From positions 1 to 64,000 of the forward strand of contig JAGXGH010000056.1 in NCBI GenBank assembly GCA_024636835.1: a DNA stretch of 64,000 bases, written 5' to 3'. The notes under the pieces were generated by a model. That model was not told the DNA's origin, did not search any database, and saw nothing but the letters and a program-made list of their open reading frames with translations. Made by a program: the position numbers and the translations under genes. Positions 15,421 to 42,378 of the stretch are shown here, one piece after another (positions within the stretch are counted from its first letter, which is position 1; each line of letters opens with the position of its first letter). The stretch comes from Verrucomicrobiales bacterium (GTDB lineage Bacteria; Verrucomicrobiota; Verrucomicrobiia; Verrucomicrobiales; SLCJ01).

Positions 15421-17637
15421 CTAGGGTTTTGAACTCAGAAAGCGATGCTCTCCCGATCCCACTCCGGAAATCCGCAGGAATTCGCCATCGACTTCTCCTT
15501 CAACCGGTTTGCCATCCATGTGGACAACGTTATAACCATCGCGGATAGGTACATAAACTTCGGCCGTGGTGTTGGCCGGGATGTTAACAGTGAGCGCGAA
15601 CGCCCCCTCAGGCTTCTGATTAAATGACACGTAAACCGGCCCGCGAATCGTCGGGGTTTTCAGCGATCCGCTGCGGAGTGAGCCAACTTGTGGTTTGATT
15701 TCTATCCGGCCAAAGCCTGGCTCGAGCGGAGTCACGCCCATTAACCTTCTTGGGATGATGTTTGCCGGGACAGCGCCCCAGGCATGGTTCCAGTCCTGGT
15801 TGCCCTTGAATTGATTTCCCCAAGCCTCCATGGTGATCGTCGATCCTTCACGGATCATGTTCCACCAGCTGCGCTTCTCTTTTGAGTTCAATAAAGAGAG
15901 CGCATAATCGTCCTCACCGGCCAGATATAAGCCGTCCATCAGGTATTGCGCGCCATACACGCTGCAGGCCATTTTTCTGGATTTTACAAATTTGGTGACA
16001 CTCGCTATCCGATCTGCCGGTACCAGTCCGAAAGCCAGCGGCCACATGTTGGCGTGTAAGGACGCGTGTTTGCTTCCTTCGCCGTCGATATAGACGCCGC
16101 GCTTGGTGTCGAATAGCTTCTCGTTGATCATCTTCCCGACTTCGGCGGCTTTTTTCTCAAACTCAGCGGCATCCGCATCCTCGCCCAGTGCTTTGGCCAT
16201 TTTGGCAAACAGCACACAAGTTCGGTAATGGAAAGCGTTGACCACAGTGTTGATCGGCTTCAGGTCATAACCGTCTCGTTCGCCTTTCGGCCAATCGACA
16301 ATATCACGAAGTTTGTCGATATGGATCTTTTTGAATACTTCCTCAGGGATGTTGCTGGTACTGATCAATCCGTCGGCACGCGCTAATTCGTGCAGCGTCT
16401 TTGCCTTCAGGTCTTCGTAATAGCGAGCCATGGACTCTTTGTCCCCTGTGTATTCATAATCGGCCCACGCCATCAGCACGGAGTGATGAGCCCACTCGGT
16501 TGGCCAAGTAGGATTCATGATCAAATACTCATGAGTATACCGCGGTAGTGTGTATTCGCGGTCGGTTCCGTAGTGGCAAAGCTGGTTGATATAAGCATCC
16601 GCCTCGTAAGGGATGCGTTCACGGTCGCCGTCCACGTAAACCCCGCAAAAACTCGTCGCTTTGATTGAATATTTCGAAATATCCCAAACCGCATTCAAGG
16701 TCTCATCGGAGCTGGTGAAACTTGCAGCATCCTCGTCGAATGGATAATGAACGGCGACCATCACGACCGAATCGATCTTTAATTCGGCGGGTGACTCACT
16801 GATCTCACAATAGCGGAACGGCATGACCTCACCGACGGAGGGGGGCATCTTGATGGCAGCGCCTCCTGTGTTTCTTTTATCCGGGGTGATTTTCACGGTG
16901 TATGTTCCCAGTCCTTTTTTTACTGGCACCGTCATCACGCGGTAGCGTCGTGTGCCGCCCGGTTTGCGGTTCACCCGCTCTTTTTTTGGAGCCTTTTCTT
17001 CTCCCAAGTGCACCTCAATGTTGGCGGCAACCGGGCTGTCGATTTTAAGGGTTACGGTGCCGAAGGCGGCTTTGCCAAAATCATAATAGAAGTGACCGTC
17101 GGCCACTTTCTCAAACTTCACCGCTTTTCGCTCCTCACTCACTGGTAGATAGCGGTTGGGAAGCACATCACCTTGCTTACCCGAGAGTTCGATGTCCGCA
17201 TCGATTTCTTCATGCATATGAAATTGCTGTGGTGCGGACCATTGTGAAGGTGTCTCTGATTTGAGAAATGTCCGAACCTTCCACCAGTACGACGCCCCGG
17301 CCTGCAGCGGGGCTCCCTTGTATTCGACCGCTACAGATTGCGAGGACGCTACCCGTCCACTGTCCCACAGGTCGCCGGTGTTTGCGTTCAACTTGGATTC
17401 GGAGCTTGCCACCAGAATCTGATAGCCCGTCTGCAATTCGTTTTTGGCCGGTGAATTGACCACCCAGCTAAAGTCCGGTTGAGAATCGGTGATTGCCGTC
17501 CGCTCCGGGTGTGCCATCAGTTCGCACATTAAGCCAGTGGGCGTATTTTCAACAGCGGCCCGGCATACCCCTGTAGAGAGAGCCATGGCAGTAAGAAGAT
17601 AGGTTACGGTGGGGGTGTATTTGCGTATCAAACTCAT
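15421..17637 (-). CDS. Alpha-L-rhamnosidase (GH78)
   Basis: About 738 residues if translation starts at the MMSLIRK methionines, which place a signal peptide (ending CRA) at the N-terminus; the frame extends upstream to 17742. Domain order: fibronectin-like N-terminal region (GLMCELMAHPE, about 30-140), beta-sandwich with YDFGKAAFGTV, then an (alpha/alpha)6 barrel. The GH78 acidic motif reads DGDRERIPYEAD (about 335-346). Next come HHSVLMAWADYEYTGD and the C-terminal cap with ITMEAWG and HAWGAVP. It should release terminal rhamnose, or another 6-deoxy sugar, from polysaccharide side chains in the periplasm or outside. The neighbours are an SGNH esterase downstream and a XylR-type regulator upstream. 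Confidence 0.9.
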   Translation of the reverse strand: MSLIRKYTPTVTYLLTAMALSTGVCRAAVENTPTGLMCELMAHPERTAITDSQPDFSWVVNSPAKNELQTGYQILVASSESKLNANTGDLWDSGRVASSQSVAVEYKGAPLQAGASYWWKVRTFLKSETPSQWSAPQQFHMHEEIDADIELSGKQGDVLPNRYLPVSEERKAVKFEKVADGHFYYDFGKAAFGTVTLKIDSPVAANIEVHLGEEKAPKKERVNRKPGGTRRYRVMTVPVKKGLGTYTVKITPDKRNTGGAAIKMPPSVGEVMPFRYCEISESPAELKIDSVVMVAVHYPFDEDAASFTSSDETLNAVWDISKYSIKATSFCGVYVDGDRERIPYEADAYINQLCHYGTDREYTLPRYTHEYLIMNPTWPTEWAHHSVLMAWADYEYTGDKESMARYYEDLKAKTLHELARADGLISTSNIPEEVFKKIHIDKLRDIVDWPKGERDGYDLKPINTVVNAFHYRTCVLFAKMAKALGEDADAAEFEKKAAEVGKMINEKLFDTKRGVYIDGEGSKHASLHANMWPLAFGLVPADRIASVTKFVKSRKMACSVYGAQYLMDGLYLAGEDDYALSLLNSKEKRSWWNMIREGSTITMEAWGNQFKGNQDWNHAWGAVPANIIPRRLMGVTPLEPGFGRIEIKPQVGSLRSGSLKTPTIRGPVYVSFNQKPEGAFALTVNIPANTTAEVYVPIRDGYNVVHMDGKPVEGEVDGEFLRISGVGSGEHRFLSSKP

Positions 17638-17961
17638 CATAGGGTAGGGCATAGCAGATATTACGCAGCTATACGTGGTTTTTATCAATACCTCTTTCGG
17701 GCGAATGTAGGTAGAATGCGACATCCGACCCAGACGGTGCACCTGTAAACGAGGATCGTATTCACCCTAGACCTGTCGAATGAACTGCAGGAACGGATTT
17801 AACTGGCGTATTCACTATCAATAGCATCCGAGTTGGAGGACGTGTCGGAACTGTTGACCCGCTTTAGGAATAAACCAACTCAGCTAATGTTGCAGTCGGT
17901 GATGCAAACTATGCCTTATTCATAATCTTTGGTAAAAAGGTGTAATGTTCTCTGCTGGCGG

Positions 17962-20122: not shown

Positions 20123-20475
20123 TGAGTGAACAGATTAGCCGCGAGGTTTCAGCGTCGGAAAGATAAAAAACGGTGAATAATGGATTCTTCCCACGTTTCC
20201 CTGTCTTTTTTCACACATAATCTATGTGGCAGAAGAGTGTCTTTAGAATGCCGAGGTTCGAATAGAGAGGGAGGATCGTGTTTCTGCCTTAAATGGCTCT
20301 TCATTCCACCTTCCTATAGCCTGTCAGTCATCCATACAGGTCAAGAAATTGGCTTTTTCTGTCGATCTGCCATACCCAGTGGAAAGGTCTCCATTCTTTG
20401 CCACGTTCAAAATACCAGAATATAGCTTTAAGAGCTGATATCATCATTCATCATCCAGCCACGATCCACACCACC
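20123..20475. other. Divergent intergenic region, no gene seen
   Basis: About 350 AT-rich bases between the divergent esterase (minus) and sialate-esterase (plus) genes. No conserved frame is visible. There is a short inverted repeat CCTGT...ACAGG around 20320-20340. It must contain the promoters of both genes. Confidence 0.45.
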
Positions 20476-22386
20476 ATGAAGCGAACAGCACACTCACTGA
20501 CTATTGTTCTCACTAGTCTCCTTCTCACACTCACACCGTCAGTATCGGCGCAGACATTGGTCATGGGTGAGGATTCCATCGACGTGCCAGCCATGAAGAG
20601 CGGCTTGTGTGTTCACAACCTCTTCCAGTCCAACATGGTCTTGCAACGTGACCAGCCCATCCAGGTCTGGGGATGGGCCGACAAGGGCTCGGAGGTCAAG
20701 GCTGCCTTCGCAGGCAAGCAAGTGAGTGCGCAACCCGACAGTTCCAGCCGCTGGGTGGTCGAATTTCCAGCGATGCCCGCCAACTCGACCCCGCAGACGA
20801 TGGAGATCGCCTGCGGCAAGGAATCCGTCCACATTGAGAACATCCTCATCGGTGATGTTTGGCTGCTCGGTGGGCAAAGTAACATGGAACACCCCATCTC
20901 CAGAGTGGAGGATGGTCAGTTGGAGATCATGTCGGCGAACTACCCGAATATTCGGCACCTCACGGTTCCGCAACCCAATGGCTACGAGCCGCTGGCGAAT
21001 TTTCCCCGCCTGATGGAGTGGCACAGTTTCTTCCGAACCCATTACCGCAAAGGCTACTGGGATGTGTGCACGCCGGAGACCGTGCCCGAGCTGTCGGCCA
21101 TCGGCTATATCTTTGCGAAACGCCTTCACATGGCTAGCGGAGTGCCGATTGGGATTATTGACGCTTCACGTGGCGGCACCTGCTTGGAAACATGGATACC
21201 CACCTCCGTGCTGGAAGGGATAGACACCCCGGAGGTCAAAGCCAAGCTCGCTGAATGGGATAAAAAGATTGCGGACTATGACCCTGCGAAGGATCTCGAA
21301 GATCAAAAGAACCGTTACCGCAATAAGGTCGAAGCGATGAAGCAGAATGGACAGGAAATCCCCGTAGAGTTGAAGGAGCCAACCGAGCCACGTCCATGTC
21401 CAGCTTTCGATATGAACCGTCCGGGTAATGCCTACGCCAGCATCCTTAACCCGCTCTCGGGCCTGAAGATCAAGGGCGCCATCTGGCACCAAGGCTACAA
21501 CAATGCCATGGTGCTCGGTGGTCACGTGATGTATTATCAGGTTTTTGACGACATGATCGCCTCATGGAGAAAAGCTTTTGGCGATCCGGACATGCCATTT
21601 GGAATCATCTCTCTGTGCACCGATGGGGAACCTCAGACTTTGGACAATTATCTGGAGATGATGATTAACGAAGGTATGTACGTCCGCCAGGTTCAGTATC
21701 AGACATTTCTCGACTTTCAGAAAGCTGGTGATAAAAACATGGGCTTTGCCAGCAGCTACGATATGCGTCGTGATTGGTATCACCCTCAGCTGAAGATACC
21801 TGTTGGCGAGCGCATCGCCCGCTGGGCCTTAGCCACTCAATATGGGAAAGGTAATCTCAAGTGGGAACCCCCGGTCATCGGTAAGGTAGACTCGAGCGAG
21901 GGCACCCTTGTTCTCACTTTCAATGAGCCCGTTGGCTGCCTGAAAGGTGATGTGATTGAAGGATTCGCTATCGCTGGTGAAGATCGCCGTTTTCAGCCGG
22001 CGAAGGCTGAATACCAAGTCATTGGCAAGGACGGTAAAGGACGCCCTCAAGTTAACGAACGCGTACTGGTGCTTTCCAGTCCTCATGTTAGTGCGCCCGT
22101 TCACTATCGCTATGCCTGGGGGCGAAACCCGATGGGCAACCTGAAACCTCGATATACCCAGGATGGCCCGCCGCTGGCCACTAAGCGCAGCGATGACTGG
22201 CCGATGAACGAGGTTCCCGTCAAATTCGGTGAAGAGATCGATCGAGAGACCACGAATCAGGCCCGCCAAGCCCACAAACTTTTCGATGCGGAGAGACGGG
22301 TCAACGATGCCCAACTCTTGATCGACGCTGAGCAGGAAAGCACTTCAAAGGCGATGGAGGATTGGAAGAAAAAGTGGGGTCGTTAA
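20476..22386 (+). CDS. Sialate O-acetylesterase family (SASA) protein
   Basis: A 636-residue exported protein. The ATG at 20476 follows directly with a signal peptide (MKRTAHSLTIVL ... VSAQ). A beta-sandwich follows (about 40-120; HNLFQSNMVLQRDQPIQVWG), then the SGNH-type SASA domain with nucleophile motif LLGGQSNME (about 131). The second block includes RGGTCLETW, and the third GAIWHQGYNNA. Enzymes of this architecture deacetylate sugars, including non-sialate substrates in environmental bacteria. The last ~60 residues are a charged helix. It lies upstream of the sigma/FecR pair and is probably part of the same polysaccharide response. Confidence 0.85.
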   Translation: MKRTAHSLTIVLTSLLLTLTPSVSAQTLVMGEDSIDVPAMKSGLCVHNLFQSNMVLQRDQPIQVWGWADKGSEVKAAFAGKQVSAQPDSSSRWVVEFPAMPANSTPQTMEIACGKESVHIENILIGDVWLLGGQSNMEHPISRVEDGQLEIMSANYPNIRHLTVPQPNGYEPLANFPRLMEWHSFFRTHYRKGYWDVCTPETVPELSAIGYIFAKRLHMASGVPIGIIDASRGGTCLETWIPTSVLEGIDTPEVKAKLAEWDKKIADYDPAKDLEDQKNRYRNKVEAMKQNGQEIPVELKEPTEPRPCPAFDMNRPGNAYASILNPLSGLKIKGAIWHQGYNNAMVLGGHVMYYQVFDDMIASWRKAFGDPDMPFGIISLCTDGEPQTLDNYLEMMINEGMYVRQVQYQTFLDFQKAGDKNMGFASSYDMRRDWYHPQLKIPVGERIARWALATQYGKGNLKWEPPVIGKVDSSEGTLVLTFNEPVGCLKGDVIEGFAIAGEDRRFQPAKAEYQVIGKDGKGRPQVNERVLVLSSPHVSAPVHYRYAWGRNPMGNLKPRYTQDGPPLATKRSDDWPMNEVPVKFGEEIDRETTNQARQAHKLFDAERRVNDAQLLIDAEQESTSKAMEDWKKKWGR

Positions 22387-22546: not shown

Positions 22547-22574
22547 TGTTACCTTTTCGAGTTTTTGGGTATCA
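22547..22574 (+). promoter_or_regulatory. Putative ECF promoter of the sigma gene (autoregulatory)
   Basis: GTTACCTT followed by 12 bases and GGTATCA. The core ACCTT-13-GTAT matches in sequence and spacing the element found upstream of the three PEP-CTERM genes (GTAACCTT, 12 bases, GGTATTA). The -10-like end lies only 5-10 bases before the two candidate ATGs, so the transcript would be leaderless or nearly so. Confidence 0.5.
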
Positions 22575-22578
22575 TCCA

Positions 22579-23103
22579 ATGCATATGGGTGAATTTTCCA
22601 AGCTAATCACAGAGAGCCAACAGAAGCTGTATGGCTACATCTTCTCGTTGCTCGGCGATTCCTCTGCCACCTGGGATGTGCTTCAGGAGACCAATATTGT
22701 TCTGCTTAGGAAAAAAGGGGAGTTTCGCAAGGGCAGTAATTTCACCGCTTGGGCTTTCGCTGCCGCCCGTTTCCAGACTCTCGCCTATTTGCGGGATCGC
22801 TCGCGGGAACCGGTGACCCTACTCACCCCTGAATTGATCGAGTTGTTTGCCGAGGATTCGGAGGCAGAGGCAACGCGATTTGACAGCCGACTCTCAGCTC
22901 TCGGAAAATGCATTGCCCGGCTTCCCGAAAAAAGCCGTAGCCTTGTCGATCTTCACTATAACCAGCGGGTCGGAATGAAGGAAATCGCGGAGTCCCTCAA
23001 TCAAACCCAAAATGCGATCAAGCAGGCTATTTTCCGAATCCGCAGGGCGCTACAGGATTGCATCGAAACCGCTGAAACATCATCAACATCCCATACCGAC
23101 TAA
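22579..23103 (+). CDS. ECF RNA polymerase sigma factor, Rhodopirellula/Verrucomicrobium family
   Basis: About 174 residues (172 if the second ATG at 22585 is used). Region 2 spans about 10-80 (QQKLYGYIFSLLGD, VLQETNIVLLRK, FTAWAFAAARFQ). Region 4 has a helix-turn-helix near the C-terminus (MKEIAESLNQTQNAIKQAIF). This is the family in which LQETN is conserved in the -10-recognition helix. It should direct polymerase to a small regulon. Its stop shares one base with the FecR-LamG gene (TAATG), the standard sigma/anti-sigma arrangement. The putative promoter in front resembles that of the PEP-CTERM genes, pointing to autoregulation. A longer frame from 22468 lacks family similarity and is not used. 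Confidence 0.9.
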   Translation: MHMGEFSKLITESQQKLYGYIFSLLGDSSATWDVLQETNIVLLRKKGEFRKGSNFTAWAFAAARFQTLAYLRDRSREPVTLLTPELIELFAEDSEAEATRFDSRLSALGKCIARLPEKSRSLVDLHYNQRVGMKEIAESLNQTQNAIKQAIFRIRRALQDCIETAETSSTSHTD

Positions 23104-24641
23104 TGCAAAACGAACATCCAGATGACTTTGTCAGCGCAATAGAACGCACCATGATGAGGATTCGTGATGGCGAGGCGAATGAGGCTGAAATCGAAGCCTT
23201 CCGCACGCTGCTTTACGAAAACCGTGAGGCGCGGCTGGCGTACCTTCGGGCGAACCAGCTCGATTGCATGCTCGGCATGGTTGATTCCGGGTTTGAAGCC
23301 AATACACTCGAACAGATCGGGGGGCGTCCTATCAGAGGAATTCGAATACCCATGGTTATTGCTGGAATGGCTGTCGCAGCAGCGGTGGTATTGCTTATGG
23401 CCATGTGGCCTGGGAACCAAAAGCAGGAATTGGGAATCACGGAACCGCCAATCGCAACTCTAACCTCCGCTCCCGATTCGGTCATCAATGGCAGAGCCCC
23501 GAACGGGACGGATATTATCGAGCCAGGCGTCTACTCATTCGGCAAAGGAGTCGCCGAGATCACCTTTGCGAAAGGCGCGCAGGTCGTTCCCGAAGGCCCT
23601 TGTTCCTTCGAGATCATCGACGCCATGACGATGTCGCTCAATCATGGAAAACTTTGGGCGTACTGTCCCGAGCAGGCGCATGGATTCGAAGTTCTATCAC
23701 CCGACGGGAGGAAGATTATCGATCTTGGAACCGAATTCGGGGTCGAGGTGCAGGAAACGGGCACCATGAACGTCCACGTTTTCGAAGGCATTATCGATGT
23801 TGTGGATGAAGAGTCCGGCAAGAAAGCTCTGGATGCCGGTCAAGCTATTAAATGGACGGCAGGCAAGAGTCCCGGGTTAGCCATTGAGGCAGACTTCGAC
23901 AAGTTTGTGACCGCCAGCGACCTAACCAGGAAGCGCTTCAGGGACTATCGGACTTGGATGTCTGAACGGGACGATATGCTCCTCCATTACCACTTTGCCA
24001 AAGCCCAAGAGGCAGTTGTTAGCAATGAGGCTGCCGCAGCAATGGAGAACACGGCCGGCAGGATTATCGGTGCGGATCTGGTCGGTGGACGTTCGCCCGT
24101 GATGCCCGCTCTGCAATTTGAAAACGCCGGCGATTCCATCGCTTTCCAGCTAGACGTCGCAAATTCGCTGCCTGGATTCACGATCGCCATGTGGGTGAAG
24201 GTGGATCGGCTCGAAAACTCCTACGCAACGCTTCTCAACTCGGAAGGGTGGGAGCCCGGCGACGTCCATTTTCAGGTCGGTCGTGACGGCAGCCTGCGTT
24301 CCGGAATCAATGGTATTAACTCTTTCGTCTGCAGCTCGGGATCCGTCCGCCCGGGGCAATGGCAATTGTTGGCAGTGACATGGGATCTCGGCAGCAAGAC
24401 TCCCTTGTTTTCGGTCAATGGCCAAATTGTCTCCAGTCGACCAAATCCTCGCTATGAAAAGGGATCGGTGGATTCGAAGGTCCTCTTCGGGGAATCCAGA
24501 ATCGGCACTTGGGACGGCAATAAGTACGACCAGCCCGATCGGGTTCGAGATCTAAAAGCCCGGGTCGATGAGGTCATGATTTTCCGGCGGTTGATCACCG
24601 AGGACGAGCTTACCGAAATCTACGAGAGAGGGCGCCCCTGA
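23103..24641 (+). CDS. FecR-LamG membrane protein, probable anti-sigma/sugar sensor
   Basis: A 512-residue single-pass protein. The cytoplasmic N-terminus (about 1-80; charged helices ending NQLDCMLGMV) could bind the sigma factor. One transmembrane helix lies at about 84-102. A FecR domain (about 130-236) follows, with the typical IIDLGTEFGVEV and VHVFEGIIDV motifs. The C-terminal LamG/concanavalin-like lectin domain (about 345-510; GFTIAMWVKVD, GQWQLLAVTWD, ARVDEVMIF) would lie outside the membrane. In FecR systems the periplasmic part relays a signal to the anti-sigma region. The LamG lectin fold suggests that the signal here is a carbohydrate (inference). It is translationally coupled to the ECF sigma gene. 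Confidence 0.85.
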   Translation: MQNEHPDDFVSAIERTMMRIRDGEANEAEIEAFRTLLYENREARLAYLRANQLDCMLGMVDSGFEANTLEQIGGRPIRGIRIPMVIAGMAVAAAVVLLMAMWPGNQKQELGITEPPIATLTSAPDSVINGRAPNGTDIIEPGVYSFGKGVAEITFAKGAQVVPEGPCSFEIIDAMTMSLNHGKLWAYCPEQAHGFEVLSPDGRKIIDLGTEFGVEVQETGTMNVHVFEGIIDVVDEESGKKALDAGQAIKWTAGKSPGLAIEADFDKFVTASDLTRKRFRDYRTWMSERDDMLLHYHFAKAQEAVVSNEAAAAMENTAGRIIGADLVGGRSPVMPALQFENAGDSIAFQLDVANSLPGFTIAMWVKVDRLENSYATLLNSEGWEPGDVHFQVGRDGSLRSGINGINSFVCSSGSVRPGQWQLLAVTWDLGSKTPLFSVNGQIVSSRPNPRYEKGSVDSKVLFGESRIGTWDGNKYDQPDRVRDLKARVDEVMIFRRLITEDELTEIYERGRP

Positions 24642-24785
24642 TAGGTTGGTCTTCTACTCGCTCCCCCCGCCTTTTTTTCTTACCGAGGAGAGCCCGCAGG
24701 GGGGTATTCATCGAGCTGAGTAAAAAAGTAAATTCCTGGTATTACACCGACGGTTGCAAGTCCCTTTCCTTCGCAAAATCGCTCC

Positions 24786-26231
24786 ATGAATCCCATCCCA
24801 ATCAAACTCCTCGCGCAGCCGCTGCGAATCATCACTGTCAGTTTGGCTCTGGTGTTCAGTTTGCATGCAGGCGAGGCCAACCGCCCGGCCATAGACGAGG
24901 CCAGTAGTTCCCCCAACATTCTCTTCATCTTTGCCGACGACTGGGGCTTTGGCGACCTTGGCTGTCACGGCAATCCGGTGGTGGAGACGCCCCACCTCAA
25001 CATGCTGGCCAGCCAAGGCACGGACTTCCAACAATTCACGGTGGCCAGTGGAGTTTGTTCACCCAGTCGCACGGCTCTGTTGACCGGGCACTTTCCCGCC
25101 CGCTACCGCATCAATCGTCATTTTCACCATGTGCGCCACCACATGGCCAACGGCATGCCTGATTGGTTGAGTCCCGACGCGTCGATGTTGCCACGGGTGC
25201 TCGGTAATCACGGCTACACCACCTGCCACTTTGGCAAGTGGCACTTGACCAACATCGAGATTCCGGACGCGCCCAAGCCCGACCTCTACGGCTACCAAAA
25301 GCACGCTGTATTCAACGGCCCAGGCAATCAGATCAAACCGGAACAAGTCTTTGACCAGGCCATCGAGGTGATCCGCAACGCGGACAATCAGCCGTTTTTC
25401 ATCAATCTGTGGATACACGAAACGCACACGCCCCACTATCCCAAGCCCGAGCTGATGAAGCATTACCAAGCCAAGGGACTCAGTGAGCGAGAGAGCGTGT
25501 ATCCGGCGGTGGTGACGAATGCCGACCGCGAGATCGGACGGGTGCTCAAGGCGCTCGATGAGGAAGGCTTGTCCGACAACACGCTGGTGATCTTCAGCAG
25601 TGACAATGGTCCGGAGTCGGTATTGGAGAAAACCGGCAAGACCATAACCCACAAGCAAATGGATCCGGGTTTGAACACCTGGTACTCGCTCGGTTCGTCC
25701 GGAGGGCTGAGGGGTCGCAAGCGCAGCCTCCACGAGGGCGGGATCCGGGTGCCGTTATTGGTGCGTTGGCCGAAAAAGGTCGCCGCCGGGAAAGTCGACA
25801 AAGAGACTGTCATCACCGGGGTGGATTGGTTCCCGACCCTTTGCAATATTGCGGGAGCACCTTTGCCGCAGGGCTATCAGCCGGACGGTGAAGATCGCAG
25901 CCCGGCTCTGCTCAATGCATCCTCCGTCAAGAACGGGGTATCTGATGGCCTGCAACGCCGCAAGCCGATCTTCTGGTATTGGCCAACGGGCCGGGGAGGC
26001 GACAACTGGCCGCAAGCGGCCATTCGCGACGGTGACTGGAAACTGCTCAAGACCCTGGATGGCAAGCGCACGGAGCTCTACCGCATCCCGGCGGATCGCG
26101 CCGAGGCGAACAATCTCGCGGATCAAAAACCGGAGCTGGCCAAGCAACTCGACCAACAACTCGAAGCTTGGCTCAAGCAGTTGCCAGAGAAGCCCGATCC
26201 CGCATGCTTCTCAAACTTGCGCAGCCGCTAG
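24786..26231 (+). CDS. Sulfatase, family S1 (formylglycine type)
   Basis: A 481-residue exported sulfatase. Signal peptide about 1-27. NILFIFADDWGFGD carries the calcium ligands Asp51/Asp52. CSPSR with Cys91 is the cysteine-type C-x-P-S-R site that is converted to formylglycine. The other block GHFPARYRINRH follows, and FGKWHLTN and SSDNGPES are further active-site segments. It should remove sulfate esters from a polysaccharide in the periplasm or outside and needs a formylglycine-generating enzyme encoded elsewhere. It lies downstream of the sigma/FecR pair and upstream of the first PEP-CTERM gene. Length and motifs are complete. Confidence 0.93.
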   Translation: MNPIPIKLLAQPLRIITVSLALVFSLHAGEANRPAIDEASSSPNILFIFADDWGFGDLGCHGNPVVETPHLNMLASQGTDFQQFTVASGVCSPSRTALLTGHFPARYRINRHFHHVRHHMANGMPDWLSPDASMLPRVLGNHGYTTCHFGKWHLTNIEIPDAPKPDLYGYQKHAVFNGPGNQIKPEQVFDQAIEVIRNADNQPFFINLWIHETHTPHYPKPELMKHYQAKGLSERESVYPAVVTNADREIGRVLKALDEEGLSDNTLVIFSSDNGPESVLEKTGKTITHKQMDPGLNTWYSLGSSGGLRGRKRSLHEGGIRVPLLVRWPKKVAAGKVDKETVITGVDWFPTLCNIAGAPLPQGYQPDGEDRSPALLNASSVKNGVSDGLQRRKPIFWYWPTGRGGDNWPQAAIRDGDWKLLKTLDGKRTELYRIPADRAEANNLADQKPELAKQLDQQLEAWLKQLPEKPDPACFSNLRSR

Positions 26232-26265
26232 CCGATCCCGAAAGGCTCGGTCAGTTTTTCACTCC

Positions 26266-26302
26266 AGTTTCGTAACCTTCCGTAACTTTTTGGTATTAGA
26301 GG
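26266..26302 (+). promoter_or_regulatory. ECF-type promoter upstream of PEP-CTERM gene 1
   Basis: TTTCGTAACCTTC, then CGTAACTTTTT, then GGTATTAGAGG. It is nearly identical to sites at 30246 and 32926, each upstream of a PEP-CTERM gene. The AAC-containing upstream block and the GTATTA block are separated as in ECF promoters. The distance to the ATG at 26357 is about 55 bases. Confidence 0.7.
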
Positions 26303-26356
26303 ATAATGGTGAATTCTCAAACGCCGTTAACCCTCAGATAAATAAACACCACACCG

Positions 26357-27076
26357 ATGAAAATGACGAAAAAACTGCCCATTCGCTTCCTGTTGTCTGC
26401 CTTCGGGGCCGGCGTCATGCTATTCTTGGTTCCGCTCGCTAATGCTGCGGTTGTCGTTGCGTCTTACAATTTCACCTCTGGATCGGCGGCGAGCAATGAT
26501 AGCGAAACCAATACATCGGCCACAGGCATCACCTTCGGCTCTGGGATTTCGGGTGCAGCATTTGCCAACAACCGACTGGAAATTGGCGGTGACGATACGA
26601 CCACCGCAGGATCGGGTAACAACCTCAACGGAGAATTGACCACAGCAATTTCCGGCAATGGTTATGCAACGTTTACCGTCACGATTCCGAGCGATGTTTC
26701 CGTCAATCTGACCAGCGTTCAGTTCGATTACGGCACCGGAGGTTCCCTCGGTGCCTTCAGGTTTGGTATCGGTGCGTTCAGTGACAAAACCGGATTCACA
26801 CTAGGCGACCAATTCTATGACAGGTTTCAATCGACTGGAACTACGAGTTACCCCGCTGAGCAAACTAGTTTAGCCGGAGAAGCCGCGTTGCAAAACCTCA
26901 CGAACACCTCGGTAGAATTTCGAATTTACATTGGTGACGAAAGCGGATCGCCCGATCGGATTCACTTCTTCGATAATATTAGTCTGTCGGGCGACGTGTC
27001 CGTTATCCCTGAACCGAGCTCGACATCGCTTATGGTCGGCATCCTCAGCCTTCTGATGATCCGCCGACGACGGTAG
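26357..27076 (+). CDS. PEP-CTERM sorting-domain protein 1
   Basis: A 239-residue exported protein. The signal peptide (LLSAFGAGVMLFLVPLANA) closely resembles that of the second PEP-CTERM protein. The mature domain is beta-rich, with many Ser/Thr/Gly and few Cys, and no catalytic motif was recognised. The C-terminus is a classical PEP-CTERM signal: VIPEPSS, hydrophobic helix, then four arginines. Such tails are cleaved by an exosortase and the protein is delivered to the cell surface or exopolysaccharide; no exosortase gene is in this window. It is controlled by the shared ECF-like promoter and sits between the sulfatase and the GH43-like gene. It could be a structural or binding component for the polysaccharide (inference). 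Confidence 0.85.
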   Translation: MKMTKKLPIRFLLSAFGAGVMLFLVPLANAAVVVASYNFTSGSAASNDSETNTSATGITFGSGISGAAFANNRLEIGGDDTTTAGSGNNLNGELTTAISGNGYATFTVTIPSDVSVNLTSVQFDYGTGGSLGAFRFGIGAFSDKTGFTLGDQFYDRFQSTGTTSYPAEQTSLAGEAALQNLTNTSVEFRIYIGDESGSPDRIHFFDNISLSGDVSVIPEPSSTSLMVGILSLLMIRRRR

Positions 27077-27164
27077 TAACCGTTTGAGGCTTCCGTAGCT
27101 TGGGTCACGAAGCCTTCCTTGTCGTAGAACTATCCTTTCCATCGCGCATGCTCATTCCATTGTG

Positions 27165-27261
27165 ATACCGATCTTCATTTAAAAGATGACTTTTCTCCGC
27201 GCACAAGTCGTTCTCAATCAACCCAATCCCCGTCCACTCGCGTCAGATCATTACCAAGATT
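27165..27261 (+). repeat. Copy B of a ~97-base conserved leader/regulatory element
   Basis: It aligns without gaps to the reverse complement of 12261-12357. It contains AAAAGATGACTTTTCT at 27181-27196 and the 25-base identical block at 27237-27261, ending 4 bases before the ATG of the GH43-like gene. Here it occupies the full upstream region and 5' leader of a gene, so it is probably the functional version. Confidence 0.7.
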
Positions 27262-27265
27262 GGGT

Positions 27266-28327
27266 ATGACACGCCACCTCTTGCTGACGCTATTCGGCAT
27301 CGGTCTTCTGGCCTCGTCCATCTTGGCGGGCCCGACGCAGGAGGCGGTTGACGATTCTCTCGACCTGGGTCAACGCATGCTTCCAGTGCCTCGCAGCGCA
27401 TGCTTCCAGGATCCCGGATACTTCACCTGGTGCGGGTCGATGATTCAGGGAGATGATGAGAAATACTATCTCTGTTATTCCCGCTGGCCCTACGAGAAGA
27501 AGATGAGTGGCTGGGTTACTTACTCGGAAGTCGCGCTGGCGGTAGCGGATCATCCCCTCGGGCCTTATCGCCATCACTCGGTCCTGCTTCATGGCCGCGG
27601 CAAAGGTCACTTCGACGGCACCATGATCCACAACCCCCATGTCCACAAGTTTGGCGATAAATTCTACCTCTACTACGTGGGTGCCAGCGATGCGGGCTCT
27701 TTTCGCGCCACCCGCCTCACTCAACGAATCGGCGTCGCCGTCGCGGACTCGATCCTTGGCCCCTGGCAGCGGTTTGACCAACCGCTGATCGATGTCACCC
27801 CCGATTCATTTGATGCCGCCCTTACCACCAACCCCTCCGTCACCTATTTCAAGGGCCGCTACATCATGGTCTACAAATGCCAGGGTAAGGACGGCAAGGT
27901 GTTCCATGGCGTCGCTTTTTCCGACTCACCCACCGGCCCGTTTGTGAAGCATTCCCGGCCGATTTTTACCGACCCCAGGAGCCCGTTCCCGGCAGAAGAC
28001 CCTTTCCTTTTCACCTACAAGGGCAAGCTTTACACCATACTTTCCGACAACAAGGTGTTCACTGATATCAAGCAAGCTCTGTGCTTGTTCGAATCGGAAG
28101 ACGGGGTGGATTGGAAACTTTCCAAGCATGCGATCATCTCCGACCGCACGATCCAGTGGGCTGACGGTAGCACTGAGAAGCTTGGCGATCTGGAGCGTCC
28201 ACAGATCTTTTTCGACCGCAACGGAGAGCCAGCCGTGCTGTTTTGCGCAGCCACCCATGGCAAACGGGCCCCGGGCAACACCTTCAATATTCAAATTCCC
28301 CTCAACCCCACCTTGCTAAAGCCATAA
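27266..28327 (+). CDS. GH43-like five-bladed propeller protein (exported)
   Basis: A 353-residue protein with a signal peptide (about 1-21). Repeated blade motifs are typical of the GH43/GH117-like clan: FTWCGSMIQGDD, YYLCYSRWP, FDGTMIHNPHVHKF, FYLYYVG, ADSILGPWQRF, FPAEDPFLF and LERPQIFF. Acidic residues occur at expected places, but the family cannot be fixed by eye, and some relatives in sulfatase clusters act on galactans or anhydrosugars. The true start is ATG 27266; an upstream TTG would add two residues. The 97-base element at 27165 forms its leader. The next gene, a fucosidase, follows after 51 bases, so the two are probably one transcript. Confidence 0.72.
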   Translation: MTRHLLLTLFGIGLLASSILAGPTQEAVDDSLDLGQRMLPVPRSACFQDPGYFTWCGSMIQGDDEKYYLCYSRWPYEKKMSGWVTYSEVALAVADHPLGPYRHHSVLLHGRGKGHFDGTMIHNPHVHKFGDKFYLYYVGASDAGSFRATRLTQRIGVAVADSILGPWQRFDQPLIDVTPDSFDAALTTNPSVTYFKGRYIMVYKCQGKDGKVFHGVAFSDSPTGPFVKHSRPIFTDPRSPFPAEDPFLFTYKGKLYTILSDNKVFTDIKQALCLFESEDGVDWKLSKHAIISDRTIQWADGSTEKLGDLERPQIFFDRNGEPAVLFCAATHGKRAPGNTFNIQIPLNPTLLKP

Positions 28328-28378
28328 GTCTTTTGCTCCGCCGCAAATACTGAAAAGCAAATTCCTGACCCTAGAATT

Positions 28379-30157
28379 ATGACAAATCCGACTTTATCCG
28401 CCCTTCGTTGGCTTGCTCTGTGTTTGTCTTTCCTAGTCAGCATCCATGCCGAGGAACGGATGGATGAAATGTGGGGGGAAAGCACGGTAAAGCTCAGAGC
28501 GGCTGATGCCGAAAAGGGTCAACTTTTCGACAAAGGCAACTACGCCATGTTCATCCACTGGGGGCTGTATTCGCAGTTGGCCAACAAGGTGGATGGCAAG
28601 ACCTACTACGGGATCGGGGAGTGGATCATGAATCCAAGAATGGCCAACATCCCGCCTGAGCAATACAAGAAGCTGGCGGGCGAATTCAATCCGACCCGAT
28701 TCGATGTCAAGGCCATTGCGCGTCTGGCCAAGGATGCGGGGATGAAATACGTCATCATCACCAGCAAGCACCACGACGGTTTTGCGATGTATGATTCCGC
28801 CGCCTGCGATTTCAATGTGGTGGACGCGACACCGTGGAAGATGGATCCAATGAAGGAGTTGGCGGCCGCGTGCCGTGAACTTGGGCTCGGGTTTGGGTTC
28901 TACTATTCGCACAACCAGGACTGGACCTTTCCCGGTGGCGGTGGCGGACCGAAGCTGGATGCCGAGGGCAAGCCTGCGAGCTTTGACGACTATTTTCTCA
29001 AAAAGTGCCTGCCGCAGGTCGAGGAAATCACCAGTCAATACGGGCCGATCGAGTTGGTGTGGTTCGACACCCCGGGGCGGATGCCAAAGAAATATGCCGA
29101 GCAGTTGGTGGCGGTGGTGCGCAAGAACCAGCCCAAGGCATTGGTTTCCGGTCGTGTGGGTCACGGACTTGGCGACTACCAGTCGCTGGGAGACATGGAG
29201 GTGCCGCATCGCAATATTGAGGGGATGTGGGAAAGTGTCGATACCACCAACGACTCCTGGGCCTATGCCTGGTATGACGAATGCTGGAAGACTCCCGATG
29301 AGATTCTGCGGCGCTTGATCAGTTGCGTGGCGAGGGGTGGTACCTACATGCTCAACATCGGCCCGCGAGGGGACGGATCGGTGCCGGAACGCGCTGCACG
29401 CTCGCTGCGTGAATCGGGTGCCTGGATCCATCGCTACCCGCAGGTGGTTTATGATACGGCTTCCTCACCCTGGAAGCATGCACTCCCGTGGGGCGATGTG
29501 ACGGTCAAAGGCAAGCGCCTGTTCCTTTCGGTCTTCGATTGGCCGGCGTCCGGCAAACTCTATCTGCCCGGGCTCGAGACCCGGGTGGTTTCGGCCAAAT
29601 TGCTGGATGGAAAATCCGCGAGCGAGTTGACTCATGAGCGCCTTCATGGATGGACGGTTGTGGAGTTGCCGGCCCGTGCACCGGAGCGCTTGGTGTCGGT
29701 GATTGAGTTGGCGTTGGAAGCCGAGCCGGTGGTCGACACCACCTTTGGGCTCGATCCGAATGGAGCCACTACTGTGCTTGCCGAGTTCGCTGAGGTCGCT
29801 GGTGCCAAGGGTTCGAAAAAGCACTGGATGGAGAAATTCGGCGAATGGAAGACCGCTTACCACATTCACCAATGGAAGCCCGAATCCAGCGTCACGTTCG
29901 AAGTCGAGGTGCTCGCGGCTGGCGATTACATGGTGGACCTCAACTACGCCGGAGAAGGGCGCTATGTCTGGAGTGTCGGGGTGGTCGGCGGCGAACGAAT
30001 CCAAAACCAGCAGAACTCATCGGCGATATATCAAGATCACCCAATCGGTTGGCTTCGCTTCCCTCAGCCCGGAAAACACAAGGTCGAGGTCAAGTGCGTG
30101 GATGGCAATCTCGACAGTGCGAGCCTACGGGCCATCCGGTTCACACCTGTTTTCTGA
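28379..30157 (+). CDS. Alpha-L-fucosidase (GH29) 1
   Basis: A 592-residue exported enzyme. Signal peptide ends IHA (about 24). The (beta/alpha)8 barrel has FIHWGLYSQ, GEWIMN, YVIITSKHHDGFAM, and the nucleophile Asp230 in ELVWFDTPG. The barrel closes with GTYMLNIGPRGDG. A beta-sandwich follows, and a further C-terminal domain (about 460-592) resembles a carbohydrate-binding module. It releases fucose with retention of configuration. It is intact, in contrast to the third fucosidase at 52668, and lies between the GH43-like gene and the second PEP-CTERM promoter. Confidence 0.93.
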   Translation: MTNPTLSALRWLALCLSFLVSIHAEERMDEMWGESTVKLRAADAEKGQLFDKGNYAMFIHWGLYSQLANKVDGKTYYGIGEWIMNPRMANIPPEQYKKLAGEFNPTRFDVKAIARLAKDAGMKYVIITSKHHDGFAMYDSAACDFNVVDATPWKMDPMKELAAACRELGLGFGFYYSHNQDWTFPGGGGGPKLDAEGKPASFDDYFLKKCLPQVEEITSQYGPIELVWFDTPGRMPKKYAEQLVAVVRKNQPKALVSGRVGHGLGDYQSLGDMEVPHRNIEGMWESVDTTNDSWAYAWYDECWKTPDEILRRLISCVARGGTYMLNIGPRGDGSVPERAARSLRESGAWIHRYPQVVYDTASSPWKHALPWGDVTVKGKRLFLSVFDWPASGKLYLPGLETRVVSAKLLDGKSASELTHERLHGWTVVELPARAPERLVSVIELALEAEPVVDTTFGLDPNGATTVLAEFAEVAGAKGSKKHWMEKFGEWKTAYHIHQWKPESSVTFEVEVLAAGDYMVDLNYAGEGRYVWSVGVVGGERIQNQQNSSAIYQDHPIGWLRFPQPGKHKVEVKCVDGNLDSASLRAIRFTPVF

Positions 30158-30245
30158 TGAGTTTCCAGCGAACTCTTTGCCTGATGGGGAGGCCTGGAAA
30201 CTTTCCAAGGGTAAGGAAATGAGACAGCCCCAAAAAACTTACTCC

Positions 30246-30282
30246 CATTTCGTAACCTTCCGTGACCTTTTGGTATTAGAGG
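30246..30282 (+). promoter_or_regulatory. ECF-type promoter upstream of PEP-CTERM gene 2
   Basis: TTTCGTAACCTTC, CGTGACCTTTT, GGTATTAGAGG. It differs from the sites at 26266 and 32926 at only a few bases with identical spacing. It is about 65 bases before the likely start at 30347. Confidence 0.7.
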
Positions 30283-30346
30283 GTGGCAATGATCCGCATT
30301 GAGGGCTCAAACGCCTAAAAACCTCGTAAGTATGAGCACCAAGTCC

Positions 30347-31105
30347 ATGAAAACAACCAACAAACTGCCCTTTCAACTTTCGTTCGTTGCTTTTGGGGTG
30401 GGCGCCATGCTGTCCTTTGCTCCGCTCGCAAAGGCCGCGGTGATCACTTGGGGCAGCGCAACCGACGTTGTCAGCACCCTCGATGTCTCTACCAACGGAA
30501 CGACTGTAGAAGCGTTTAACATTGGTTACGAGTACACTGGCGCTATAGTTCCCACGCCCCCTGCACTCTCAACGGTGACAGTGAACTCGGTGATATTTGC
30601 GGCACTAGCTGGACCTTCCCCCCTGACAGAGACCAATGGCGGCGCCTACGGCTTTCTGGCGGGTAAAACCACGGGGAACACCGATTATAACTCGCTTCTG
30701 AATTCGGCTGCTTATGGTGGTGGAACCGGCACCGTCGATATGACCCTCGGAGGAGGAAACCTGGTAAATGGGCAGCAGTACGAGATTCAGCTCTGGTATG
30801 TCGATGTAAGAACAGAGGGTGTTGATACACGCGCCATGATATTTGGCGACGGAGAGATCACTGAAAGTTCCGTTAGTGTTTCAAGCGGAATCTTCGGTCC
30901 CAGCGGGACGCTCGGGCAGTATACCATAGGGACATTCACCGCCGACGGAATCAATCAGACCCTGAGCCTAACCCCCGGCGTAGCGCCCAACGCTTTTGGT
31001 AACTCCCAATTAAACGCCTACCAGATCCGCGCCGTTCCCGAGCCATCGGCTGCATCCCTTGTTGGTCTTTGCGGTCTCGCATTGATTCTGCGCAGACGTA
31101 GGTAG
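30347..31105 (+). CDS. PEP-CTERM sorting-domain protein 2
   Basis: About 252 residues from the ATG giving MKTTNKLPFQLSFVAF, whose signal peptide parallels PEP-CTERM protein 1; ATGs at 30332 and 30299 are in frame but less likely. The mature part (about 25-225) is beta-rich with no Cys cluster (AVITWGSATDVV, GGAYGFLAGKTTGN, LWYVDVR). The end reads VPEPSAASLVG, a hydrophobic helix and RRRR, the PEP-CTERM/exosortase signal. A strong terminator follows at 31134. It should be a surface or matrix protein made under the shared ECF-type promoter; the molecular function is unknown. Confidence 0.85.
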   Translation: MKTTNKLPFQLSFVAFGVGAMLSFAPLAKAAVITWGSATDVVSTLDVSTNGTTVEAFNIGYEYTGAIVPTPPALSTVTVNSVIFAALAGPSPLTETNGGAYGFLAGKTTGNTDYNSLLNSAAYGGGTGTVDMTLGGGNLVNGQQYEIQLWYVDVRTEGVDTRAMIFGDGEITESSVSVSSGIFGPSGTLGQYTIGTFTADGINQTLSLTPGVAPNAFGNSQLNAYQIRAVPEPSAASLVGLCGLALILRRRR

Positions 31106-31133
31106 GTTCTGCGCTGACATTTTCAAAAGCTTC

Positions 31134-31168
31134 ATCGGCTCTCTCCCTTAGGGAGGGGCCGATTTTTT
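31134..31168 (+). terminator. Rho-independent terminator
   Basis: The stem ATCGGC + CTCTCCC pairs with GGGAGGG + GCCGAT around a TTA loop, followed by six T. It ends the PEP-CTERM gene 2 transcript. Confidence 0.88.
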
Positions 31169-31277
31169 ATAGCCGATATAAGCGCGCCGTTTTCATAAGC
31201 ATCACATCATTCTGGGCATATTTACCGAAGGATGCGGCCTACTTCGTTCAAGCAGCCCGGAAGCCCGTTTTTTTTCA

Positions 31278-32903
31278 ATGACACTTCCATCGTCAATATT
31301 ACCAAAAAGCCTGATAGCCCTCACATGCTTGACTAATCTACTCACACTGAGTGCCGCTCTGGCCGTATCGAAAGAAGAATCCCAGCCCTATGACGGCAGT
31401 TGGGAGTCCCTGCAGCAGATGCCCGTGCCCGCATGGTTTGATGACGGCAAGATCGGGATCTTCATCCATTGGGGCCCCTACAGCGCAATTGGTTATGTAA
31501 AAGGTAATCGCGGTTACGCCGAGCATGTACCCAAACATATTTATAACGATCCAAAACACTATTACCCTTACCTAAAAGAACGTTGGGGCGAAACCCCTCC
31601 TAAGTTCGGGTACAAAGATATCATTCCGGAGTTCAAAGCGGAGAATTGGGATCCCGATCAGTGGGCGGCACTCTTTGCTGAAGTGGGTGCCAAATATGTC
31701 GTGCTAACGGCGGAGCATCATGATGGCTGGGCCAACTGGGATTCCGACCTGACGCCTTGGAATGCGGTGGATAAGGGTCCCAAACGCGACATCGTCGGCG
31801 ATTTGGGAAAAGCGGTGAGAGCGCAAGGACTGAAATATGCCCCCTCCTATCATCGTGAACGGCACACGGGGTTCTTCGCCAAAGAGCAGTACGCCGTGCA
31901 CAGCGAACCTCACCCGGATATTGCCGAAGAAATTAAGCGTATGCCAGAGGCGGCCACGCTCTACGGACCGTTCAGCTACGATAAAGCTTTCGTGGATGAC
32001 TACGTGGCCCGCTGGAAAGAGATTCAAACGAAATATAAGCCCGATATGCTGTGGTTGGATGATTTTCCCATCTTCACCCGCGATGGCAATGATGTGCGGG
32101 CCGGAAAAATGCAGCCGGAGATCAAATATTTCGATGATCAGGTTCGTGGGATGATCACCGACTTTATGAACGATGGCGCGGCACGCGGTGCCGATGTCTA
32201 CGTCAACAACAAGGGAGCTAACCGCAACTGGCCGGCTGGGGTCGGATGTTTGGAGAAAGATAATCTCAAACTCAAGGTGATCGGCCCAAAATGGCAGAGT
32301 TGCACGACATTCGGCACGTCATTTGGATACCTGGCCGCCGAAGAAAATCCGAACTATGCGTGGAAAAAGACCGCTGAGGAGGTGATTCACGAAATGGTCG
32401 AAGTCATCAGCCGCAACGGCAACTTCTTGATCAACATAGGGCCCAAAGCGGATGGAACCATCCCGGCCTGGCAGGTTGAGCGGTTGCGCGAGATGGGTGC
32501 CTGGTTAAAAATCAACGGCGATGCCATTTATGGATCACGTTATTGGAAGGTAGATATGCAGCGGAACGAACAGCTCTCTTTCACTACGAAAGGGAAAACG
32601 CTCTACGCGATCAAAAGCGCTAAACCGGCTGCTCCTTTCACGATTGAAGCGACTACGGGCTGGACCGCCGGTCAGGTAAAGTCAGTCAAGTTGCTCGGTT
32701 CCAATGACGCGGTGAATTGGGAGATGACTCCCCGCGGGTTACAGATCACGCCACCATCCAATCTCGGAAAAAGCATGTTCGCATGGACTTTCGCAATTTT
32801 GACGACCGAAGAGCAGCACCACTCCAATTCCATTCAAATAGATGCCAGCAAAGCGCTAAAAGGAACGAAGAAAGTGGATCTAGAGGGTGCTTACGACAAG
32901 TGA
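31278..32903 (+). CDS. Alpha-L-fucosidase (GH29) 2
   Basis: A 541-residue exported enzyme with signal peptide about 1-29. GH29 motifs: IGIFIHWGPYSAIG, YVVLTAEHHDGWANWDS, nucleophile Asp261 in DMLWLDDF, and NGNFLINIGPKADG. It differs clearly from fucosidase 1, so it is not a recent duplication and may have a different linkage specificity. The C-terminal beta domain (about 415-541) is shorter than in fucosidase 1. It stands after a terminator and before PEP-CTERM gene 3; its own promoter should lie in 31170-31277. Confidence 0.93.
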   Translation: MTLPSSILPKSLIALTCLTNLLTLSAALAVSKEESQPYDGSWESLQQMPVPAWFDDGKIGIFIHWGPYSAIGYVKGNRGYAEHVPKHIYNDPKHYYPYLKERWGETPPKFGYKDIIPEFKAENWDPDQWAALFAEVGAKYVVLTAEHHDGWANWDSDLTPWNAVDKGPKRDIVGDLGKAVRAQGLKYAPSYHRERHTGFFAKEQYAVHSEPHPDIAEEIKRMPEAATLYGPFSYDKAFVDDYVARWKEIQTKYKPDMLWLDDFPIFTRDGNDVRAGKMQPEIKYFDDQVRGMITDFMNDGAARGADVYVNNKGANRNWPAGVGCLEKDNLKLKVIGPKWQSCTTFGTSFGYLAAEENPNYAWKKTAEEVIHEMVEVISRNGNFLINIGPKADGTIPAWQVERLREMGAWLKINGDAIYGSRYWKVDMQRNEQLSFTTKGKTLYAIKSAKPAAPFTIEATTGWTAGQVKSVKLLGSNDAVNWEMTPRGLQITPPSNLGKSMFAWTFAILTTEEQHHSNSIQIDASKALKGTKKVDLEGAYDK

Positions 32904-32925
32904 AAGAATCAGTTTTTTTGCTCCA

Positions 32926-32962
32926 ATTCGGTAACCTTCCGTAACTTTTTGGTATTAGAGGG
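32926..32962 (+). promoter_or_regulatory. ECF-type promoter upstream of PEP-CTERM gene 3
   Basis: ATTCGGTAACCTTCC, GTAACTTTTT, GGTATTAGAGG, followed by GTGGCAAT as at 30282. This is the third near-identical copy, about 50 bases before the ATG at 33011. Confidence 0.7.
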
Positions 32963-33010
32963 TGGCAATTGTCTACAAGGAAGACTCAGGTACCGTAAAC
33001 CCGCACAAAT

Positions 33011-33838
33011 ATGATGACTACCCGTTCCAAACTCACCACGCTTACCCTTTGCTCTCTGGCCGCAGGCTTTCTGCCAGCTCAGGCGGCGGTTCTCATCGAC
33101 CACACTTTCGATGGAGTCGCCAACGACACCGGTCCGGCGTTTCAAGAAGTGCAAAACACCTCAGGAACAGCAGGAACAGCAAACCTGAGTACCGGCGAGA
33201 TCAAGCTGGGGAATTTTGATAGCAGCAACGTTGGCTTCAATAACGTCAGCACGGTCAATGTGACGGCGCTCGATCCGACCGCCACCGGGTTTACTGCCAC
33301 CTTCTATGTGACCAGCACAACTGCGGACGTGTCGTCATTGCTCTACAACGGCATGTTCTTCGGTGTGGTTTCCGGCACCGCCGCTACGGGAACCGGCGGC
33401 AGTAATCTCTGGGTCAACAATCCAGATGCCTTTGGCTACGTCGCTGGCAGCGGCGCATACGGTGACCATCTGATGCGCCAGGACGGCACTACAGATGCGA
33501 ATTCCACAAATTCATCCCTGACGACCACGCAGCCGACCGACGCTTCGTTCAAAGACGGCTTCACACTCTCCCTCAGTATGTTCAATGACAATTCCTGGTC
33601 AATCACCTCCACTGGCTTGAGCACGAATCTGAATGGTAGCGGCAGCCTGAACACCGCCGCTTTCTCCTACGCGGACATCGTCAATGATCTAGGGCTCTAC
33701 GTTAGCCTACAGGGTCAAGCGGGCAACCCCACCATTACCATGAACCGGATGACCCTAGAAAGCGTTGCCGTACCTGAGCCATCTTCCGCACTGCTCTGCC
33801 TTGGAGGCTTGGGTCTTTTGCTCCGTCGCAGACGTTGA
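33011..33838 (+). CDS. PEP-CTERM sorting-domain protein 3
   Basis: A 275-residue exported protein with a signal peptide ending PAQA (about 25). The mature beta-rich domain (VLIDHTFDGVANDTG, TGFTATFYVTS, DGFTLSLSMFNDNSWSI) has a LamG/jelly-roll look common among PEP-CTERM proteins. The C-terminus is VPEPSSALLCLGG, hydrophobic, RRRR. It should be exported, exosortase-processed and surface-associated. It is the third member of the group with the conserved ECF-type promoter. No enzyme motif was recognised. Confidence 0.85.
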   Translation: MMTTRSKLTTLTLCSLAAGFLPAQAAVLIDHTFDGVANDTGPAFQEVQNTSGTAGTANLSTGEIKLGNFDSSNVGFNNVSTVNVTALDPTATGFTATFYVTSTTADVSSLLYNGMFFGVVSGTAATGTGGSNLWVNNPDAFGYVAGSGAYGDHLMRQDGTTDANSTNSSLTTTQPTDASFKDGFTLSLSMFNDNSWSITSTGLSTNLNGSGSLNTAAFSYADIVNDLGLYVSLQGQAGNPTITMNRMTLESVAVPEPSSALLCLGGLGLLLRRRR

Positions 33839-42288: not shown

Positions 42289-42378
42289 ATGCCCGACAGT
42301 CTGCACCCCAACATTCCCGGCTATCGCGCCTGGGCGGAAGCCATGGAACCGACCATCAAAAAGATGCTCGGAGAATGA
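42289..42378 (+). pseudogene. C-terminal remnant of a GDSL-family esterase (29 codons)
   Basis: ATG-PDSLHPNIPGYRAWAEAMEP-stop region: the L-H-P-N-x-x-G-Y-x-x-W-A block with the catalytic Asp-x-x-His (here Asp3, His6) followed by a final helix is the standard end of PAF-acetylhydrolase-like GDSL enzymes. Nothing else of that enzyme is present. Its stop overlaps the start of the next gene (ATGA), suggesting that the lost esterase was once translationally coupled to the GH78-type enzyme. Confidence 0.7.

Follow-up and report, generated by a model that had tools for sequence, protein, structure and literature searches.

The window analysed in this work, a 64,000-nucleotide stretch of a Verrucomicrobiales genome, contains four sites of one sequence motif, which are most probably (about 0.8 by our estimate) promoters recognized by an ECF sigma factor encoded at the same locus. 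This sigma factor, held by a membrane partner, would form a self-activating circuit that switches on three neighbouring PEP-CTERM genes. The proposal draws on the identity, rarity and position of the sites, on their conservation across phyla and co-variation with the sigma clade, on gene order and on domain make-up, which were read directly from the DNA and its translations. A local self-activating circuit is well supported because the pairing of sigma and PEP-CTERM genes is conserved in two phyla and because other motif pairs were found at related loci.

In the 5.54-Mb genome, the exact motif GTAACCTT-N12-GGTATTA occurs only three times, each copy being situated 55–60 nt before a PEP-CTERM gene. 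These candidate ECF-type promoters, all on the forward strand and with zero mismatches to the motif, occupy positions 26272..26298, 30252..30278 and 32931..32957 in front of PEP-CTERM genes 1, 2 and 3, respectively; GGTAT ends 60, 55 and 55 nt ahead of the respective start codons (for gene 2, 55 nt to ATG 30332 or, alternatively, 70 nt to ATG 30347). The fourth site (22548..22574, forward strand) precedes the sigma gene and reads GTTACCTT-N12-GGTATCA, with two mismatches relative to the PEP-CTERM sites; it is a predicted autoregulatory promoter of the form GTTACC-N14-GGTAT, in the equivalent place to which the orthologues carry GTAACC-N13-15-GGTAT. Eight sigma genes, this one and its orthologues, are preceded by an AAC-type -35 element standing about 15–16 nt from a -10 element. 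The reversed exact motif gave no matches in the 5.54-Mb genome, and shuffled window sequences gave none for the motif itself. With up to two mismatches allowed, nine places were found in 5.54 Mb, four of which are inside these 10.4 kb. Although 72 PEP-CTERM matches were detected in the genome, the site-bearing genes are the three located beside this sigma gene. An earlier note on this DNA had reported the motif upstream of all four genes and had proposed a genome-wide scan as a check. All four sites proved to be real, the sigma copy with two mismatches and the positions given for them 1–6 bases too early, and the scan showed that the motif is not equally frequent elsewhere, exact copies being present only before PEP-CTERM genes.

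The three exact window copies share 93–100% identity across 27 bases and 83–100% across the following six, while past approximately base 33 and upstream of approximately base -20 the identity falls to chance or near-chance values, so that the near-identity over about 40 bases noticed earlier was about right. The flanks of genes 2 and 3 retain 60–67% identity to base 85 in the ungapped register, owing to a GAGGGTGGCAAT stretch. The similarity might merely have been left by recent duplications that copied the beginnings of PEP-CTERM genes and be devoid of regulatory meaning, as genes 1 and 2 encode similar signal peptides (44% over 59 aa) and the spacers are nearly identical. Such an origin is highly improbable, since the identity is at or near chance outside the ~33 bases, gene 3 is unrelated to genes 1 and 2, the sigma gene also possesses a site, and the pairing recurs across phyla with unrelated PEP-CTERM proteins. 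The nearly identical spacer of the three sites contains a 10-bp direct repeat, GTAACCTTCC GTAACTTTTT. A direct repeat in the spacer is not required by an ECF site. This repeat, together with the conserved spacer, would be expected if the sites were operators at which a separate transcription factor recognizes the GTAAC direct repeat and controls both the PEP-CTERM genes and the sigma gene. We regard operators as an unlikely explanation, since the repeat is missing from the sigma site and from every orthologous site, where the outer blocks alone are kept with a spacer of 13–15 nt, and since the sites stand at promoter distance upstream of sigma start codons and track the sigma clade. For the promoters proposed here, the near-identical window spacers suggest a recent spread of one promoter copy, and a second DNA-binding protein could account for the spacer identity and the repeat.

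The sigma gene (22585..23103, forward strand) encodes a member of the TIGR02989 family (the Rhodopirellula/Verrucomicrobium family) by the curated NCBIfam cut-off (141.9 bits versus 124.55), and both the Sigma70_r2 and r4_2 domains were found by profile search. Its start is likely ATG 22585 or 22579, with GGTAT ending 12 or 6 nt earlier; the longest open reading frame, from 22468, would place the promoter within the gene, and the real start is probably elsewhere. The next reading frame (23103..24641, forward strand) overlaps the sigma stop codon and encodes a putative anti-sigma factor with a helical N-terminus, a transmembrane segment at about residues 82–100, a FecR-like beta domain and a LamG/concanavalin-like domain; we infer that it is translationally coupled to the sigma factor and acts as its anti-sigma. 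In the window protein, the match to FecR falls below the Pfam cut-off (15.2 versus 24), and those of the partners at the orthologous loci L092 and L093 are above it. The AlphaFold model of the window protein displays N-terminal helices, a transmembrane segment, a beta domain and a lectin-like domain, and profile matches were obtained with solved FecR-like putative anti-sigma structures and with an arabinanase C-terminal domain. Fold search returned propeller-plus-lectin proteins with whole-chain TM scores of about 0.27, for which the lectin-like part alone is informative. A putative anti-sigma of the same plan follows 37 of the 37 sigma genes examined, overlapping or within 12 bases, with the transmembrane segment near residue 80–100.

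Relatives of the sigma factor were revealed in three Verrucomicrobiota and four Planctomycetota by a GTDB genome scan, and a search at the phylum level added the genome G123. Seven orthologues carry GTAACC-N13-15-GGTAT (GTAACT in L093) just upstream of the sigma start; L094, the most distant relative, has no comparable site. None of the 31 other TIGR02989-type sigma genes (L094 and 30 sigma genes of the window genome and of two relatives, 28 of these 30 being covered by the scan) possesses it (Fisher 1.6e-8), and the eight carriers, the window included, form one clade with support of 95/72. In seven of these eight, the block ends 6–14 nt before the likely sigma start codon (38 nt in L093), and leaderless or near-leaderless sigma messages are therefore predicted. 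G123, L089 (one mismatch), L090 and L093 have a second site, situated upstream of a PEP-CTERM gene; in L088, it is found in the equivalent place, at a contig end. The orthologous locus L092 contains no PEP-CTERM gene carrying the site, and the contig of L091 is too short to show a second site or its absence. Apart from their sorting signals, most of the proteins encoded by the site-bearing PEP-CTERM genes are unrelated to one another; two pairs are exceptions, namely window gene 2 and its G123 homologue (40% over 246 aa) and the proteins of L089 and L090 (71%). The genes for the latter two (L089:8231-10270, forward; L090:4313-6277, reverse) join PATR autotransporter-type beta-strand repeats to the PEP-CTERM signal, with a G8/cadherin-domain gene alongside.

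In seven genomes, 27 strict motif sites were counted, 12 of them in sigma loci, versus 17 for the reversed control; the strict sites outside sigma loci are thus at background level, and many of those 15 lie within open reading frames. In G633 and G636, the strict motif is represented by the two copies of the locus only. A longer motif, GTWACCTT-N12-GGTATYA, was also tried across the order (289 genomes) and was abandoned, as it gave three unrelated single matches; the short form is the conserved one. Searches covering 388 genomes of Verrucomicrobiota, 392 of Planctomycetota and 213 of the order to which L090 belongs, performed with strict cut-offs and a capped number of scored candidates per genome, so that others were possibly missed, added at least one orthologue, that of G123. 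No further orthologue was detected in the genus of G123 with a query whose middle part was approximate (73% match to the real protein), which makes this a weak negative.

The association with PEP-CTERM genes extends to paralogous sigma factors. PEP-CTERM genes occur within 11 kb of all 14 strong TIGR02989 loci in the window genome and in G006, a member of the same genus, and of 4 of the 18 such loci in G123. The latter genome encodes about 28 TIGR02989 sigma factors above the cut-off, most of the examined ones being without PEP-CTERM neighbours; at one of its loci (G123_1879, L206), a possible cognate site precedes a gene for a protein with a pilin-like N-terminus. A two-block score with a maximum of 13 served to compare the region upstream of each sigma gene with those upstream of PEP-CTERM genes. 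Scores of at least 12.5 were reached by 9 of 32 cognate pairs versus 1.2% of non-cognate ones, and the observed total was matched in none of 20,000 permutations of the pairing (permutation p = 5e-5); without the window locus, the values were 9 of 29 and 0.7%. Among non-PEP genes of the same loci, after removal of two that overlapped the sigma region itself, only 4 of 168 reached 12.5 (Fisher 1e-5 against 9 of 32); these four include genes for an alpha-L-fucosidase, a sulfatase and a cadherin/metalloprotease protein. The slot right after the FecR-like gene gave the same outcome as the PEP-CTERM comparison. This is a conservative measure: even the window locus scores no more than 11 of 13, its sigma and PEP-CTERM sites being unlike at the -35 element and at the base before GGTAT. 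About half of the sigma/PEP-CTERM loci (e.g., G006_1756, G006_1171 and own_C117) have no clear shared motif by this test. Pairs read by eye, along with GTTACC/GTAACC..GGTAT of the window, include GTAACGTTT..CTAT (C110), TGTCGAA..G(G/A)C(A/T)(A/T)T (C123), GTTAACG..GTCCAT (G006_799, sigma and three PEP-CTERM genes), GTTAACG..CGAAATA (G006_3051), GTAATAC..CCGCAT (G006_3251, sigma and two PEP-CTERM genes) and GTTAACGTTT..CTTATTGG (G123_2565); for C123, C126 and C85, the motifs found in this way are weaker and do not stand out in the two-block score. The promoter code thus seems to differ from one paralogous circuit to another.

At the window locus, the PEP-CTERM genes are interspersed with genes of polysaccharide degradation, all on the forward strand. 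PEP-CTERM gene 1 (26357..27076) encodes a protein with the C-terminus VIPEPSSTSLMVGILSLLMIRRRR, a weak NF038120 match and no Pfam match, its assignment resting on the signal peptide and C-terminus as read from the sequence and on this weak profile; the products of genes 2 (30332..31105) and 3 (33011..33838) pass TIGR02595. A sulfatase gene (24786..26231) stands ahead of gene 1, a GH43-like gene (27260..28327) and a first alpha-L-fucosidase gene (GH29; 28379..30157) lie between genes 1 and 2, and a second alpha-L-fucosidase gene (31278..32903) lies between genes 2 and 3; each of the four is without an ECF site in front. The element AAAGYAAATTCCTG, located at 24725-24738 and 28354-28367 shortly upstream of the sulfatase and first alpha-L-fucosidase genes, was considered as possibly shared by the hydrolases; it was dropped, as it has three matches when at most two mismatches are allowed, a number equalled in 4 of 100 shuffles. 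Genes for alpha-L-rhamnosidase-like and sialate-esterase-like proteins flank the sigma locus (15421-17742, reverse; 20398-22386, 42375-44978 and 45118-46560, forward). As such genes surround the locus, its gene content suggests a target polysaccharide that contains fucose and rhamnose together with sulfate or acetyl groups.

The whole locus, including the sulfatase, GH43 and GH29 genes, might come under the circuit by read-through starting at the PEP-CTERM promoters, and the circuit would then be mainly a switch for polysaccharide utilisation; we hold this as a tentative possibility, compatible with the main reading, as both can be true. The hydrolase genes follow PEP-CTERM gene 1 directly, and no terminator was detected between them by a simple scan. 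In addition, G006 has an alpha-L-fucosidase gene, and possibly a sulfatase gene, with cognate sites, and genes for sulfatases and glycosidases abound at the Planctomycetota locus L093. On the other hand, none of the window hydrolase genes has a site, gaps of 170–230 bp follow every PEP-CTERM gene, and a terminator-like hairpin with a T run (31140..31158, forward strand) is situated downstream of gene 2, by the same simple scan, in which the total hairpin count is no higher than in shuffles. At L093, one protein (L093:4578-7199, reverse) combines a sulfatase domain with a GH10 domain. The earlier note had claimed a sigma circuit governing surface proteins and polysaccharide degradation together. 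Control of the PEP-CTERM genes is well supported by the pairing in two phyla and by the sister pairs; joint control of degradation is supported only in part, the window hydrolases being site-free.

According to the self-activating circuit proposed here, the partner protein would hold the sigma factor at the membrane and sense the outside by its FecR-like and LamG-like lectin domains, the signal being perhaps a glycan. Once released, the sigma factor would bind the four sites and transcribe its own operon, with a predicted start almost on the start codon (leaderless or near-leaderless), and the three PEP-CTERM genes, with a leader of about 50 nt each. An exosortase, likely encoded in this genome because of its 72 PEP-CTERM matches, would then sort the PEP-CTERM proteins to the cell surface. 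The genome and its relatives contain several sigma/FecR/PEP-CTERM modules, each paralogous sigma factor apparently having its own promoter sequence. We lean slightly towards a broader generalization, in which Verrucomicrobiota and some Planctomycetota would possess parallel insulated sigma/FecR-LamG/PEP-CTERM modules with private promoter codes and their own lectin-like sensors, one polymer each. If so, each environmental polymer would call up its own set of exosortase-sorted proteins, plus hydrolases in some loci.

The PEP-CTERM domain was first met in Verrucomicrobium spinosum, with 65 copies, and the 2006 description found a common sigma-54 regulatory motif in Proteobacteria only (PMC1569441). 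The sigma/promoter pairing suggests a way to control PEP-CTERM genes outside Proteobacteria, and would provide a concrete answer to a question left open since that study. In the open-access literature, we came across no account of PEP-CTERM genes being controlled by an ECF sigma factor, and neither a promoter code nor a class of targets published for TIGR02989. Our results propose a likely regulatory role for this large uncharacterised family, which numbers tens of copies in single genomes of some relatives. The natural sigma/promoter pairs, with apparently differing specificities, may be of use in orthogonal gene circuits, and the pairing offers a means of predicting jointly acting surface proteins and hydrolases.

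Among known systems, PEP-CTERM genes of Proteobacteria are controlled by sigma-54 with PrsK/PrsR (PMC1569441, PMC9850573). Both systems have a common promoter-type DNA motif upstream of PEP-CTERM genes, but the motif is of the ECF -35/-10 type here; sigma-54-like -24/-12 sites number 67 in the window versus 64 expected, none of them before the three PEP-CTERM genes. The insulated modules, if real, would be a non-proteobacterial counterpart of that control. FecI/FecR resembles the present system in gene order, an ECF sigma gene being followed by one for a membrane protein whose extracytoplasmic domain is FecR-like, as well as in local targets, and differs from it in that here the partner has a LamG-like domain, the targets are PEP-CTERM genes and the sigma factor is predicted to activate its own gene. 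No TonB-dependent receptor was found among the window genes scanned, which are a subset. The likeness to polysaccharide utilisation loci of Bacteroidetes, drawn in the earlier note, holds for the logic, a sigma circuit acting locally in the vicinity of genes for hydrolases and sulfatases; it does not extend to SusC, SusD or the TonB receptor, which are absent from the scanned subset of genes, and the promoter sites here stand mostly before PEP-CTERM genes. The SigI/RsgI systems of cellulolytic clostridia likewise comprise several autoregulated paralogous sigma factors; each shares an operon with a membrane-bound anti-sigma factor, whose sensory portion lies outside the cell, and has a promoter specificity of its own (PMC6056542). 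They differ in that the sigma factor here is of the TIGR02989 and not of the SigI type, a FecR/LamG protein takes the place of RsgI (the profile search gave no match to an RsgI domain), and the targets are mostly PEP-CTERM genes instead of cellulosome genes. Furthermore, both promoter elements seem to be paralogue-specific here, whereas SigI specificity was placed upstream of the A-tract in the -35 element (PMC6056542). On this comparison, we consider clostridial SigI/RsgI to be at least as close a parallel as the Bacteroidetes loci.
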